Of a stretch of DNA of 44,150 nt, positions 9,338 to 44,150 are shown piece by piece. The notes below the pieces were generated by a model, which was given only the letters and a program-made list of their open reading frames with translations, searched no databases and was not told the DNA's origin. Source of the DNA: a virus. The position numbers and the translations under genes were made by a program. Position 1 is the first letter of the stretch. Every line of letters begins with the position of its first letter. The stretch spans positions 1-44,150 of the IMG/VR virus record IMGVR_UViG_3300035698_006860; one strand, written 5' to 3'.

Positions 9338-9543
9338 TTTCTCATCTTTGCTGCTGCTGCATTAGCGAACAAGGAGCGTAGCCAGGCGGGGACTGATGAA
9401 GGCTTTGTTGCTTTAATTTTTCCTTTAGTGCCTCTCGACTGTAGCCGGTTTACTTTCCGTGATTGCGGATTTAATTTTTTCTTTTGTTTCTTCTTTTGTT
9501 TCTTCATTTTTTTCTTCATTTTTTTCTTCATTTTTTTCTTCAT
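9334..9543 (-). CDS. Very basic lysine-repeat protein (69 aa)
   Basis: The first 23 residues are almost only Lys with spaced Met and Gln: MKKKMKKKMKKKMKKQKKKQ then KKK. The rest is also basic (NPQSRKVNRLQSRGTKGKIK) and ends AAAAKMRK. The coding DNA has 12-base repeats. Both ends overlap neighbours by ATGA, which supports real translation. A nucleic-acid-binding, histone-like role is plausible; nothing more can be said. Confidence 0.65.
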   Translation of the reverse strand: MKKKMKKKMKKKMKKQKKKQKKKLNPQSRKVNRLQSRGTKGKIKATKPSSVPAWLRSLFANAAAAKMRK

Positions 9544-9803
9544 TTTTTTCTTGCCATCTTTCTTGCTACTTTATATCCGGTAAGTTCATAAACTCGTTTC
9601 ATATTAGTAACAACGATCTCCGTTGGTTTTTTTTTACGTTTAATCATTGCAAGGATCACACCATCTTCTCTCGCTCTGACTACATACCCCTGGATGCTGG
9701 CAGTGCTACATTCACAATCTTCTGCTAAAGTTTCTTTAGTTCTACCGAATGATGAAATATTTTCTAAAAATGTGTCATATTTACTTTTTCTTCTTTTAAT
9801 CAT
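9540..9803 (-). CDS. Small winged-helix/HTH DNA-binding protein (87 aa)
   Basis: The start at 9803 is preferred over 9815 because GGAAG lies five bases upstream and the ATG overlaps the previous stop (ATGA). The segment DTFLENISSFGRTKETLAED followed by CECSTASIQGYVVRAREDG looks like a helix-turn-helix with wing, and the C-terminus is very basic (YKVARKMARKK). It may be a transcription regulator of the replication unit. No operator is identified. Confidence 0.65.
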   Translation of the reverse strand: MIKRRKSKYDTFLENISSFGRTKETLAEDCECSTASIQGYVVRAREDGVILAMIKRKKKPTEIVVTNMKRVYELTGYKVARKMARKK

Positions 9804-10045: not shown

Positions 10046-11221
10046 TTAATCGTTACAGCTAGCTGCCACTTCTTGTGATATGCTAGATGTAATGAAATTC
10101 TTAGTTTCCTTGTACGCTGGAAGGACGTGGCTATTGAGGAATTCAGAATTATACACCAAACCGCTCTTCTCTAATTGAAGAACACTACTGGACATAGAGC
10201 CGTATTCTTTTGTAGCAAGGGTGAATTTAACATTCAGAGCTTGATATTTTCCACCTGGAGCCGTTGATTTAGCACTCACTATAAAAGGTAGAATGCCTTT
10301 CGCAAGTCCTGGGTCCAATGATGTTGGTGGAAGCTTTAATACTACTGGCACCCGCTGGCTGTCAATCAGGATATACAACCATATCTTATTAGAACATAGT
10401 TTGCCTTTTTTATTACCGTGAATAGCCGTACCGAATCTATTGGCAACGCACTCCTTACAATAAGTTACGGGCTGGACATCAAATACATCGGATGGTAGGG
10501 CTGAAGAAGCGGTTCGATTATTCAATGCACACCAGGCATTCAGATGAACCTGCATCGCCATGGAATCAACGGACATACGCTGAAGTTCAATATCAGCCGT
10601 TATTTTTTTAATGATAGCTACATACTTCTCACTGGTCACACCATTCCGTAATTTTATCTTACAGAATGGAAAATCGCCACCATCTGGCATCTTGCCATTA
10701 GTCGAGCTACATACTGGTGGCTCATTTTCACTATCACCAAATTTTTTGTAAAATAAAGCATTGACATTATGAAGAAGCAAAATGTGCCCAGTGAAAGAGG
10801 GAGTTAATTCTCCGTCTGGCATTTTGAACTGAGCAGCCTCCTTCATAATTTCAACAACTGGTAGCTGTATTCCCAGGGGCATGTCATCAGCGTCGTCCCC
10901 GCCGAACATTTCATGGACTTCGGACTCGGAGAAAGGAGTAAGGACTTTAGTCTTTTCAATCTGTGTGTAGGTGTCTTTCAACGCTTCAGGTTCAGCATTC
11001 GTCGCTGCCCTCCATTCAACTTGTTTCTTCGCCGCTGTGTTCATTTCAACTTGCTTCTTCGTCATGTCAAACGCATCTTTAATCTGCTTGCCAATAGCTG
11101 AAGTTGGTTCGTCGGTTTCGATAGCAGCTTCTACGTTATCATTGGCTTCTTGTATTGCCTTTTCCTGTGCCGTCGTCAATGACATATCGCCAATAGGTTT
11201 CATTTTCTCAAACTGATCCAT
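10046..11221 (-). CDS. Probable OB-fold ssDNA-binding-like zinc protein (391 aa)
   Basis: The start at 11221 is chosen because AAAGGA lies six bases upstream; ATG at 11224 is also possible. An acidic, helical N-terminal third is followed by a domain with VCSS, FPFCK, YCKECVANRFGTA and KGKLCSNK, a cysteine arrangement seen in a phage family often placed with single-strand DNA-binding or recombination genes, then IWLYILIDSQRVPVVLKLPP, typical beta-rich OB-like sequence. I infer an SSB-like role from this and from its place in the replication unit. Confidence 0.6.
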   Translation of the reverse strand: MDQFEKMKPIGDMSLTTAQEKAIQEANDNVEAAIETDEPTSAIGKQIKDAFDMTKKQVEMNTAAKKQVEWRAATNAEPEALKDTYTQIEKTKVLTPFSESEVHEMFGGDDADDMPLGIQLPVVEIMKEAAQFKMPDGELTPSFTGHILLLHNVNALFYKKFGDSENEPPVCSSTNGKMPDGGDFPFCKIKLRNGVTSEKYVAIIKKITADIELQRMSVDSMAMQVHLNAWCALNNRTASSALPSDVFDVQPVTYCKECVANRFGTAIHGNKKGKLCSNKIWLYILIDSQRVPVVLKLPPTSLDPGLAKGILPFIVSAKSTAPGGKYQALNVKFTLATKEYGSMSSSVLQLEKSGLVYNSEFLNSHVLPAYKETKNFITSSISQEVAASCND

Positions 11222-11239
11222 CATAGTTCCTTTCAAAAG

Positions 11240-11632
11240 TTATCGTTCACGTAATATTCGTAATGCTTCCAGACACTTGCTGAGAGCTATTCTTTCTTGT
11301 TGGTTTTTGCAGTGACCTTGTAACCTGTCAATGATAATTGCCAGTAAAGTTTGTTCGTTTAGTCCGTCAACACCATTCTCACGTGCCACTGGGCCGTCGT
11401 GAAATGGTATGATTAAATTTGCGACATTTTCTACACCATCATCAACCATCGTCATTCCAACGACGTATCCACGACTTTGGCGATTTGATGCTCTGTACCT
11501 ATCGCCGTCAAGCACACCAAGAGATATGAAATGATAATGTTCTTTCTTTCCTTCATGTGATATGATACGTCGTATGACAGGAGTAATGACCGGCTTGTAG
11601 ATTATTTCTTCTTGTTTCTTGGGACTGTTCAT
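11240..11632 (-). CDS. Acb2-like protein (candidate anti-CBASS cyclic-nucleotide sponge)
   Basis: Residues about 73-130 read LIIPFHDGPVARENGVDGLN then EQTLLAIIIDRLQGH, followed by ERIALSKCLEALRILRER. This follows the pattern of the Acb2/DUF7681 helical-hairpin family (F-x-D-G-P, G-V-(N/D)-G, LLaiviDRL, helix ending eaLxxLxxR). Phage Acb2 hexamers bind cyclic di- and trinucleotide signals and block CBASS immunity. About 72 extra N-terminal residues of unknown nature precede it. AGGA lies about ten bases before the ATG. It sits in the early/replication unit, fitting a counter-defence gene. The call rests on remembered motif similarity, not a search. Confidence 0.65.
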   Translation of the reverse strand: MNSPKKQEEIIYKPVITPVIRRIISHEGKKEHYHFISLGVLDGDRYRASNRQSRGYVVGMTMVDDGVENVANLIIPFHDGPVARENGVDGLNEQTLLAIIIDRLQGHCKNQQERIALSKCLEALRILRER

Positions 11633-11634
11633 CG

Positions 11635-12495
11635 TTAAAATATCCTGTCAATGATTTCAATGATGTATGTATTCTCAAGCTTGTCACCACTATCTGCCTT
11701 TTCTTGCAATAACTCAAGTACTCGCATAAAATACAGACTATCCACACCAGCTACTTGATCCTGTAGGGTTGGAATATCTTTCAAATTCAGTTCATTCAAC
11801 TGAATACACATCTTGAGATATTGACCAGCATTGCATTTCCATCCGCGGTTGATAAACTTACGAGTTCGGATTATACTACATAACGGGTACAAACTACCAT
11901 TGTATCGGAGCTCCTTAGCTAAAAGGCTTTCCAATGAATCAGGTGGTAATACAAGATTGTTAAATGCAGATGTCCAGTAACACATACAATGGACGAAGTC
12001 GAAGTTTTTATGAACTTCTTCCGGCTCTCCATAAAATCGCACAATCAACTGAACACTTCCAGACAGACTGATAGCATTGTCAGTAAACCATCGAGGACGG
12101 AATGGAAATACTGCTTCTGCATCACTAGGAGCATCAAAGGCAAGATCTCCTTCTCCAGGAAGCTCTTCGTCGTCCTGCGGCATCGCTACCGGATTATTTT
12201 TAATGCTAATTCTTACCCTCGCCTCGTCAGGGCTGACTAACAATGTTGGTGAAACTTTCCCTGTTTCAGTATTATATCTTTTGATATAATACTCAGCAAC
12301 AGCAATGACAGTTTCTTTGTTGGTGAAATATAGATCAAAGTCATTGACTTCTTCACCTAATAACATAGATGCGATACATCCTCCGGTAATAATAGTATTA
12401 TCTTTCACTAGCTTTTTGACTGCTTTATCTTCAATCGACTCAATAAGTTGGTTGAGTTTCTTTCTTAGTACATTTTTAATTGCTTTACGATTCAT
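11635..12495 (-). CDS. Nucleotidyltransferase-like protein (286 aa)
   Basis: The segment TIITGGCIASMLLGEEVNDF then DLYF (34-57) has the GG...DxD signature of the polymerase-beta nucleotidyltransferase fold, with Gly38-Gly39 and Asp52/Asp54. A second acidic motif may be NFDFVHCMCYW, where the Asp follows a beta strand. The helical C-terminus (LNLKDIPTLQDQVAGVDSLY) is like those in tRNA-nucleotidyltransferase-related phage proteins. The substrate is unknown. GGTGAAAC precedes the ATG. It lies directly upstream of the Acb2-like gene. Confidence 0.72.
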   Translation of the reverse strand: MNRKAIKNVLRKKLNQLIESIEDKAVKKLVKDNTIITGGCIASMLLGEEVNDFDLYFTNKETVIAVAEYYIKRYNTETGKVSPTLLVSPDEARVRISIKNNPVAMPQDDEELPGEGDLAFDAPSDAEAVFPFRPRWFTDNAISLSGSVQLIVRFYGEPEEVHKNFDFVHCMCYWTSAFNNLVLPPDSLESLLAKELRYNGSLYPLCSIIRTRKFINRGWKCNAGQYLKMCIQLNELNLKDIPTLQDQVAGVDSLYFMRVLELLQEKADSGDKLENTYIIEIIDRIF

Positions 12496-29225: not shown

Positions 29226-30038
29226 TTACGGTGCAATTTTCAAATACACTGGAGTGTACGAAGCAATAACCGCAACAGCAGCAGCGGACATCCGTTGGCC
29301 AATATGGCCCACAGTGCCGTCACTCACCACAACGCCTCCATCATAACTGGCACTAGCCGAAACCATCAATGCTTCACCATGGGCACCCACAGCCTCACTG
29401 TAAACAGCACACGGTCCCCAAGTCTGGAGCCAGGCGTAAATATCAACAGTTGAAGTAGGAGTCGTGCCAGAAGTCGAATTTACCGATGGGACACCAAGAA
29501 TATAACCAGTATTAGTAGGTCCATCGCCAAGGCAAATCAATGGCTTGGAATACGGATTCTTCTGAACGATACAATCAGTAGTCGCCGCCAGGGCGACCGT
29601 AAGCGGATCATACAATGTAAATGTAATTGCATTAGCCGACGTCGCAGCAGTACTGCTCTTAATTCGGAGCGTCTGACCAAGACCCGTGCTGAAAGTTATA
29701 TAAATATAACCCTTAGCATAAGCATTCTCAGCCGCAGACGCGAAAGCCGCAGTACTGGTAATTGTTATTTCCGTGTCACCAACAGAAGCAGCAGTAATAC
29801 CATTGTCAATCTCGTCAGAGAATGACGCAGCATTTGCAGTATCCATGCCATATAATTTACCAAGCTCAAACGCAGCATTGAATTTCCCAAGTCGAAAGAC
29901 GCGGTCATCAATTTGTACTCGCGTTCCGATATTTCCAGGAACGCAGCCCTTCTCATTAAGTACAACAGAAGTTTCACCTAATGCCAATTTTACCGGAACA
30001 GTATCACCGTCGTTTGGGTATCTAAGTCCAGTTGCCAT
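29226..30038 (-). CDS. Capsid-region structural protein, paralogue B (270 aa)
   Basis: The start at 30038 has GGAG nine bases upstream and matches the leader of paralogue A. The product shares almost the whole sequence of A in residues 13-165 (VPVKLALGETSV, GCVPGNIGTRVQIDDRVFRL, and GQTLRIKSSTAATSANAITF) but diverges in the C-terminal third, apart from DIYAWLQTWGPCAVYSEA. Its role is unknown, probably decoration of the head. Confidence 0.7.
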   Translation of the reverse strand: MATGLRYPNDGDTVPVKLALGETSVVLNEKGCVPGNIGTRVQIDDRVFRLGKFNAAFELGKLYGMDTANAASFSDEIDNGITAASVGDTEITITSTAAFASAAENAYAKGYIYITFSTGLGQTLRIKSSTAATSANAITFTLYDPLTVALAATTDCIVQKNPYSKPLICLGDGPTNTGYILGVPSVNSTSGTTPTSTVDIYAWLQTWGPCAVYSEAVGAHGEALMVSASASYDGGVVVSDGTVGHIGQRMSAAAVAVIASYTPVYLKIAP

Positions 30039-30700
30039 AATATAAATCTCCAAAAAATTTAAAAAGTTATTTTTTTTTACGGTGCAAGCGTCAAGTTTAC
30101 TGGAAGGTATGAATAAGCAGCCTCTACAGCCGCAGAGATCATGCTAGTTCCAATTATCCCATCAGTACCATCATTCGCTAAAACAGCACCATCGTACACG
30201 TCAGTAACGGCGATCATCAATGCCGCACCGGAAGCCCCAGTCGCCTCACTATAAACAGCACATGGTCCCCAAGTTTGGAGCCAGGCATAAATGTCAACCG
30301 AAGAAGACGGAGTTGTGCCCAGTGTGGAGGAAATAGTTGGTACGCCAAGGAACCAGCCGAAGTTTGCACCCGCATGACCATCACAGAGTAATGGTACGGA
30401 ATACGGATTCTTCTGAACGATACATTCAGTAGTCGTCGCCAGGGCGACCGTAAGCGGATCATACAATGTAAACGTAATTGCATTAGCCGACGTCGCAGCA
30501 GTACTGCTCTTAATTCGGAGCGTCTGACCAAGACCCGTGCTGAAAGTTATGTAAATATAACCCTTAGCATAAGCATTCTCAGCCGCAGACGCGAAAGCCG
30601 CAGTACTGGTGATTGTTATTTTCGTGTTACCAACAGAAGCAGCAGTAATGCCATTGTCAATCTCGTCAGAGAATGACGCAGCATTTGCAGTATCCACGCC
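29547..30700. repeat. About 300-bp near-identical direct repeat within paralogues A and B
   Basis: Bases 29547-29849 and 30398-30700 (offset 851) differ at about nine positions by eye, close to 97% identity. Many differences fall at third codon positions. The flanking parts of the same genes are far less alike. This is the mark of a recent duplication or gene conversion restricted to the middle of the genes. Recombination between copies could delete one gene. Confidence 0.85.
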
Positions 30701-30889
30701 GTACATCTTACCAAGCGCAAACGCGGCATTGAATTTCCCAAGTCGAAAGACGCGGTCGTCAATTTGTACTCGCGTTCCAATATTTCCAGGAACGCAGCCC
30801 TTCTCGACACTCTCAACAGAGGTTTCACCCAATGCTAATTTTACCGGGACGGTTGTACCATTATTGGGGTATCTAAGTCCAATTGCCAT
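30077..30889 (-). CDS. Capsid-region structural protein, paralogue A (270 aa)
   Basis: First of the three paralogues downstream of the major capsid gene. It starts MAIGLRYPNNGTTVPVKLAL and carries the shared blocks GCVPGNIGTRVQIDDRVFRL, AKGYIYITFSTGLGQTLRIK and DIYAWLQTWGPCAVY. Its leader GGAGATTTATATT-ATG is the same as for B. No domain is recognised. A virion decoration or minor head role follows from position and the mainly beta composition. Confidence 0.7.
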   Translation of the reverse strand: MAIGLRYPNNGTTVPVKLALGETSVESVEKGCVPGNIGTRVQIDDRVFRLGKFNAAFALGKMYGVDTANAASFSDEIDNGITAASVGNTKITITSTAAFASAAENAYAKGYIYITFSTGLGQTLRIKSSTAATSANAITFTLYDPLTVALATTTECIVQKNPYSVPLLCDGHAGANFGWFLGVPTISSTLGTTPSSSVDIYAWLQTWGPCAVYSEATGASGAALMIAVTDVYDGAVLANDGTDGIIGTSMISAAVEAAYSYLPVNLTLAP

Positions 30890-43713: not shown

Positions 43714-44148
43714 ATGACTAAAGATAAATTAGAAAAAGTTTTAAAAGATCATTTAGTGTGGCTGAATGATAATTCAAATGGTGCTTGTGCCAATCTCAGA
43801 GGTGCCAATCTCAGTGGTGCCGATCTCAGATATGTCGATCTCAAAAGTGCCAATCTCAGTGGTGCCAATCTGACTGATGCCGATCTCAGAAGGGCCAATC
43901 TCAGTGGTGCCAATCTCAGATATGCCAATCTCATTGATGCCGATCTCAATGGTGCTGATTTCAGAGGTGCCGATCTCAGAAGTGCCGATCTCAATGGTGC
44001 TGATTTCAGTCGTGCCGATCTCAGAAGTGCCGATCTCAATGGTGCCAATCTCAGTGGTGCCGATCTCAGTGGTGCCGATCTCAGAGGTGCCGATCTCAGT
44101 GGTGCCAATCTGACTGTAGGGAATGTGAATCGGAAAATCGAAAATTAA
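43714..44148 (+). CDS. Pentapeptide-repeat protein (144 aa)
   Basis: The N-terminus MTKDKLEKVLKDHLVWLNDN is followed by about 20 pentapeptides A(D/N)LxX (a few with F) and the tail [12 protein letters not shown]. The leader AAACTGGAGACAAAACA before the ATG is the same as that before 154-783. AATTAATACCCC upstream of this leader equals the end of a pentapeptide gene, hinting that a further copy once preceded it. The fold is a right-handed beta-helix; DNA mimicry is known for some relatives but not shown here. It continues seamlessly at base 1 of the window. Confidence 0.9.
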   Translation: MTKDKLEKVLKDHLVWLNDNSNGACANLRGANLSGADLRYVDLKSANLSGANLTDADLRRANLSGANLRYANLIDADLNGADFRGADLRSADLNGADFSRADLRSADLNGANLSGADLSGADLRGADLSGANLTVGNVNRKIEN

Positions 44149-44150
44149 TA
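44024..44150. repeat. Terminal 127-bp overlap, right copy
   Basis: Identical to bases 1-127. See the left copy. It includes the last 41 codons and stop of the pentapeptide-repeat gene plus two bases. Confidence 0.9.

Follow-up and report, generated by a model that had tools for sequence, protein, structure and literature searches.

The locus and its genes

The window, that is, the whole stretch of DNA analysed here, comes from IMG/VR as a virus record of 44,150 bases. Judged by its sequence, the phage is of an orphan tailed-phage lineage: no close relatives of its terminase, helicase or primase were found in the collections searched, and searches for whole-phage relatives through the helicase, primase, terminase and the gene downstream of the one studied here returned none near enough for a locus comparison. 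The gene of interest, P0001, its two parts and its neighbours are as follows.

10046..11236, minus strand: unknown downstream neighbour, phrog_23155-like
11240..11632, minus strand: divergent Tad1-fold protein P0001, 130 aa (open reading frame; Tad1-family profile; hhalign; PHROG 2428; PDB 8kbb)
11243..11419, minus strand: P0001 residues 72-130, the helical hairpin preceded by the last strand, the F-x-x-G-P turn and the G-V-D-G loop (hhalign, AlphaFold, superposition)
11420..11632, minus strand: P0001 residues 1-71, predicted beta-sheet part in the place of the Tad1 N-terminal sheet (AlphaFold models; alignments)
11635..12495, minus strand: nucleotidyltransferase, phrog_4400, CCA/poly(A) polymerase-type

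An earlier note on this DNA had placed a gene at 11240-11632 without giving its strand. We confirmed an intact open reading frame of 130 aa on the minus strand, preceded by an AGGA ribosome-binding site ∼10 nucleotides (nt) before the ATG. A gap of 2 nt separates the start codon from the stop codon upstream, and the genes here are closely packed.

Residues 72-130 are homologous to the Tad1 hairpin

Tad1 (Thoeris anti-defence 1) is a viral protein that sequesters bacterial alarm molecules. We built a Tad1-family profile from 48 Tad1-like phage proteins, leaving P0001 out. P0001 scored 43.2 bits against this profile, no other match appeared when the window was translated in all six frames, and the best score among 2,000 shuffled versions of P0001 was 8.1 bits. 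Comparison of P0001 with the 48-member family by hhalign gave 98.1% (E value of 1.2e-13), with 45% identity between residues 72-130 and the aligned family member over 58 residues. P0001 also matched PHROG 2428 (E value of 1.9e-7) and, when used alone to search the PDB, had Tad1 8kbb as its best match (E value of 0.0048); chromo-domain proteins returned by the same search were set aside as chance matches. The family profile matched the solved Tad1 structures 8kbb (4e-38) and CbTad1 7uav (5e-31), and no Acb2 was among its matches. With P0001 alone as the query, no full-length matches were found in IMG/VR, GTDB genomes, phages or plasmids. These comparisons show clear homology between residues 72-130 and the Tad1 helical hairpin.

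The earlier note had attributed the C-terminal pattern of P0001 to Acb2/DUF7681 proteins. The pattern is present, far above chance, but it is that of Tad1 (F-x-x-G-P, G-V-N-G and LLAI..DRL). T4 Vs.4, linked to Acb2 (PMC10419184) and identical to PDB 7uq2, lacks both F-x-x-G-P and G-V-x-G and gave no BLAST match to P0001; hhalign aligned it with the Tad1 family at a probability of only 13%. The Pfam hairpin family shared by Acb2 and Tad1 proteins, PF24729, did not match P0001 even at E≤10; the lack of an Acb2 profile match was one part of what the earlier note had said would refute its reading. Acb2 proteins (T4 Vs.4, phage PaMx41 gp24) have a helical hairpin in common with P0001, and both Acb2 and Tad1 are hexameric sponges (PMC12043709). 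However, the Acb2 protomer consists of helices alone, among them a short N-terminal one, and is about 90 residues long, whereas P0001 has 130 aa and a predicted beta N-terminus. Tad1 proteins (CbTad1 7uav, CmTad1 8kbb) are phage-encoded, as P0001 is, and are of similar size (120-135 aa), with a C-terminal helical hairpin, an F-x-x-G-P turn and a beta-sheet part, predicted in P0001, ahead of the hairpin. P0001 is a divergent Tad1-fold protein, neither a standard Tad1 nor an Acb2. The earlier note was right on the broad kind, a phage sponge for nucleotide signals that carries a helical hairpin, but the member to which the sequence and fold evidence points is Tad1, not Acb2.

The predicted fold of P0001

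The C-terminal motifs of P0001 are F77-H-D-G-P81, G87-V-D-G90 and L96-L...D102-R-L104. AlphaFold run with a 47-sequence alignment predicted strands and two helices (mean pLDDT of 74); run without an alignment, it predicted, at low confidence (pLDDT of 54), strands at 19-27, 30-38, 56-64 and 72-77 followed by two helices. Both models placed alpha1 at residues 93-107 and alpha2 at residues 111-129. The predicted order of strands and helices matches that reported for Tad1, beta1-beta4 and then alpha1-alpha2 (PMC12043709). The helical hairpin, which the earlier note had proposed to look for, is present in the predicted fold and superposes on residues 67-109 of CbTad1 with 0.4 Å over 39 residues (Z of 3.9), the P0001 chain ending at the equivalent of R109; the alpha1-alpha2 turn is shorter by 4 residues than its Tad1 counterpart. 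Conserved in the hairpin core are LLAIIxDRL, A116, E122-A-L124 and R130, and the 45% identity of this core is as expected if oligomerization has been kept.

Foldseek searches with the alignment-based model returned CbTad1 in all of the top ten places (E values of 0.012 and worse, with a whole-chain TM score of only 0.28), and those with the alignment-free model returned it in the top three (E values of 0.33 and worse). The viral structure library contained no significant match to the P0001 model. PURA and DDB1, found by VIA-align with Z of about 4, were set aside as common beta-sheet arrangements; Acb2 was absent from the VIA-align list, an absence that we do not count as evidence.

The N-terminal 72 residues had been described in the earlier note as an extension beyond the usual fold. 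They sit where Tad1 proteins carry a beta-domain ahead of the hairpin (PMC12043709), so the N-terminus of P0001 is predicted to occupy the place of an ordinary Tad1 domain and not to be an unusual extra one. Its strands, at about 19-27, 30-38 and 56-64, come from two AlphaFold models of moderate (pLDDT of 56 to 83 in the N-terminus) and low confidence, and alignments detected no sequence homology between residues 1-71 and the Tad1 N-terminus. Long N-termini are known in other Tad1 relatives, namely, L066 and gp184, a 230-residue phage protein (PDB 8y6v chain I) with about 110 residues before a Tad1-domain match at 111-227. Another divergent relative (L111:3818-4222) has a different N-terminus and no DEPGAGG loop but a normal tail; a change at the N-terminus alone is thus not unique to P0001.

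Pocket residues and the C-terminal tail are missing

The equivalents of CbTad1 F82, N92, R109 and R113, numbered by counting from the alignment to the solved structure, were invariant in 48 relatives. The roles that we give to these residues are based in part on this conservation; in CbTad1, R109 and R113 contact cyclic trinucleotides. P0001 retains only R109, as its last residue, with E113 at the N92 position and F82 falling in a deleted or changed turn. In the alignments, P0001 also lacks the glycine-rich beta1-beta2 loop of Tad1 (DEPGAGGANH) and the FQAGPFACREN turn. The C-terminal tail, RTxxRxxRGVEGT, is absent as well. The RLxxF phenylalanine and the VxG tail, neither of which P0001 has, were found in 80/80 and 77/80 viral relatives, respectively, in a sample biased to canonical Tad1s by search patterns taken from conserved stretches. 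An IMG/VR Tad1 relative of 110 aa (L049/L054), 41% identical to the P0001 hairpin, resembles P0001 in its reduced alpha1-alpha2 loop and in a tail that is short and degenerate; unlike P0001, it keeps about 10 residues of tail and the RLxxF phenylalanine, and its N-terminus is short.

The DNA downstream of P0001 does not encode the tail in any frame, and we therefore rejected its removal by a frameshift or an early stop. There is no room for a Tad1 tail behind P0001, since the likely ATG of the downstream gene lies within about 15 nt of the P0001 stop. As the searches turned up no close homolog, we could not show that the features altered in P0001 are conserved.

In Tad1, the gcADPR pocket is lined by the C-terminal tail and conserved loops, and cyclic trinucleotides bind elsewhere, at trimer interfaces (reviewed in PMC12043709). 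The residues lost in P0001 are mostly those on the ligand side. The trinucleotide site may be altered too, as the R113 equivalent is gone. P0001 is ordinary in kind, as a Tad1-fold phage protein, and unusual in detail, in the loss of pocket residues and tail.

The upstream nucleotidyltransferase

The nucleotidyltransferase-like gene that the earlier note had linked to signal-making enzymes does adjoin P0001 but is of the tRNA/poly(A) type. Its product matched phrog_4400 (E value of 1.5e-66), carries the signature GG...DFDLYF of the CCA/poly(A) class (GG...DxD) and has a weak match to the PolyA_pol head. The best matches in phage genomes were 34 to 46% identical over nearly the whole length, some of them annotated as tRNA nucleotidyltransferase. 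PADLOC gave no match for it and identified no defence gene among the P0001 neighbours tested. On the basis of the phrog_4400 assignment, the tRNA nucleotidyltransferase annotation, the weak PolyA_pol head and the PADLOC result, we rejected a CBASS CD-NTase. In the phages that we looked at, phrog_4400 nucleotidyltransferases were common without an adjacent Tad1: the gene is also present in L087, Sulfitobacter phage NYA-2014a and Lysinibacillus phage LysYB1, with no Tad1 match in the stretches scanned around it. The upstream nucleotidyltransferase does not strengthen the case for a role in signalling and is probably unrelated in function to P0001.

Possible functions of P0001

We tentatively favour, as something close to an even call, the reading that P0001 is a Tad1-scaffold counter-defence protein that sequesters a nucleotide immune signal and has lost the standard gcADPR pocket. 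Such a protein would combine an N-terminal beta-sheet with a C-terminal helical hairpin, and the hairpin would assemble into a hexamer able to capture an immune signal that is a nucleotide but not gcADPR. The ligand would most likely be a cyclic oligonucleotide, for example, a cyclic trinucleotide at the hairpin trimer interfaces, or else another signal. Homology to Tad1 alone, the kept hairpin core and the mostly ligand-side losses favour this reading; the moderate confidence of the N-terminal model, the low whole-chain TM score, the lack of close homologs and the PADLOC result for the neighbours weigh against it. It is unlikely that P0001 represents a Tad1-fold branch with a rebuilt pocket, in which the N-terminal sheet replaces the loop and the tail and the signal lies outside the range of known sponges.

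The main rival, somewhat unlikely in our estimate, is that the scaffold has been kept without binding an immune signal, in a phage protein given a new or structural role, or in a decaying remnant. The loss of most ligand-side residues and of the tail is consistent with this, as are the structural-protein annotation of some relatives in phage records and the orphan status of P0001, which has no close relatives. Against it stand the intact open reading frame, which has a ribosome-binding site and lies among closely packed genes, the lack of a frameshifted tail remnant in any downstream frame and the 45% identity that the hairpin core retains with its aligned family member. Next comes a functional Tad1 acting against Thoeris, one whose pocket has been rearranged but still captures gcADPR, with, for instance, residues of the longer N-terminus replacing the tail. 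Sequence and fold match Tad1 alone, and P0001 keeps the R109 equivalent and the F-x-x-G-P/G-V-x-G turn, but it is missing the equivalents of F82 and N92 along with the glycine-rich loop and the tail, and we consider this function doubtful. Very improbable is the reading of the earlier note, in which P0001 counters CBASS as an Acb2-like protein extended by an N-terminal domain: the hairpin domain common to Acb2 and Tad1 in Pfam and their shared nature as hexameric sponges speak for it, whereas neither T4 Acb2 nor PF24729 matched P0001, hhalign separated Acb2 from the Tad1 family, and Acb2 is a shorter, all-helical protein lacking F-x-x-G-P.

The pocket is highly conserved across Tad1 proteins. 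P0001 keeps the scaffold and drops most of the pocket residues, which suggests that sponge assembly is separable from ligand choice. The profile libraries that we tried, Pfam and PADLOC, missed P0001. If P0001 still works, Tad1-fold sponges extend past the reach of current annotation, and the protein could point to a new ligand.

Other features of the window

Pentapeptide-repeat genes lie at both ends of the window, at 1-800 and 43714-44150 (Pfam Pentapeptide, 7e-59 and 4e-42), and their 15-bp repeat array reaches both ends. This could reflect a circular genome opened inside the array, or the record may contain two related arrays. At 892-1374, a hexapeptide/beta-solenoid protein with 18-bp repeats adjoins a resolvase-family recombinase (1371-2084). 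Two genes duplicated in tandem, at 29226-30053 and at 30077-30889, share 94% identity across 300 nt and adjoin the major head protein gene. Finally, within a small frame on the minus strand, a 12-bp tandem repeat at 9475-9564 codes for a stretch rich in lysine (KMKK).
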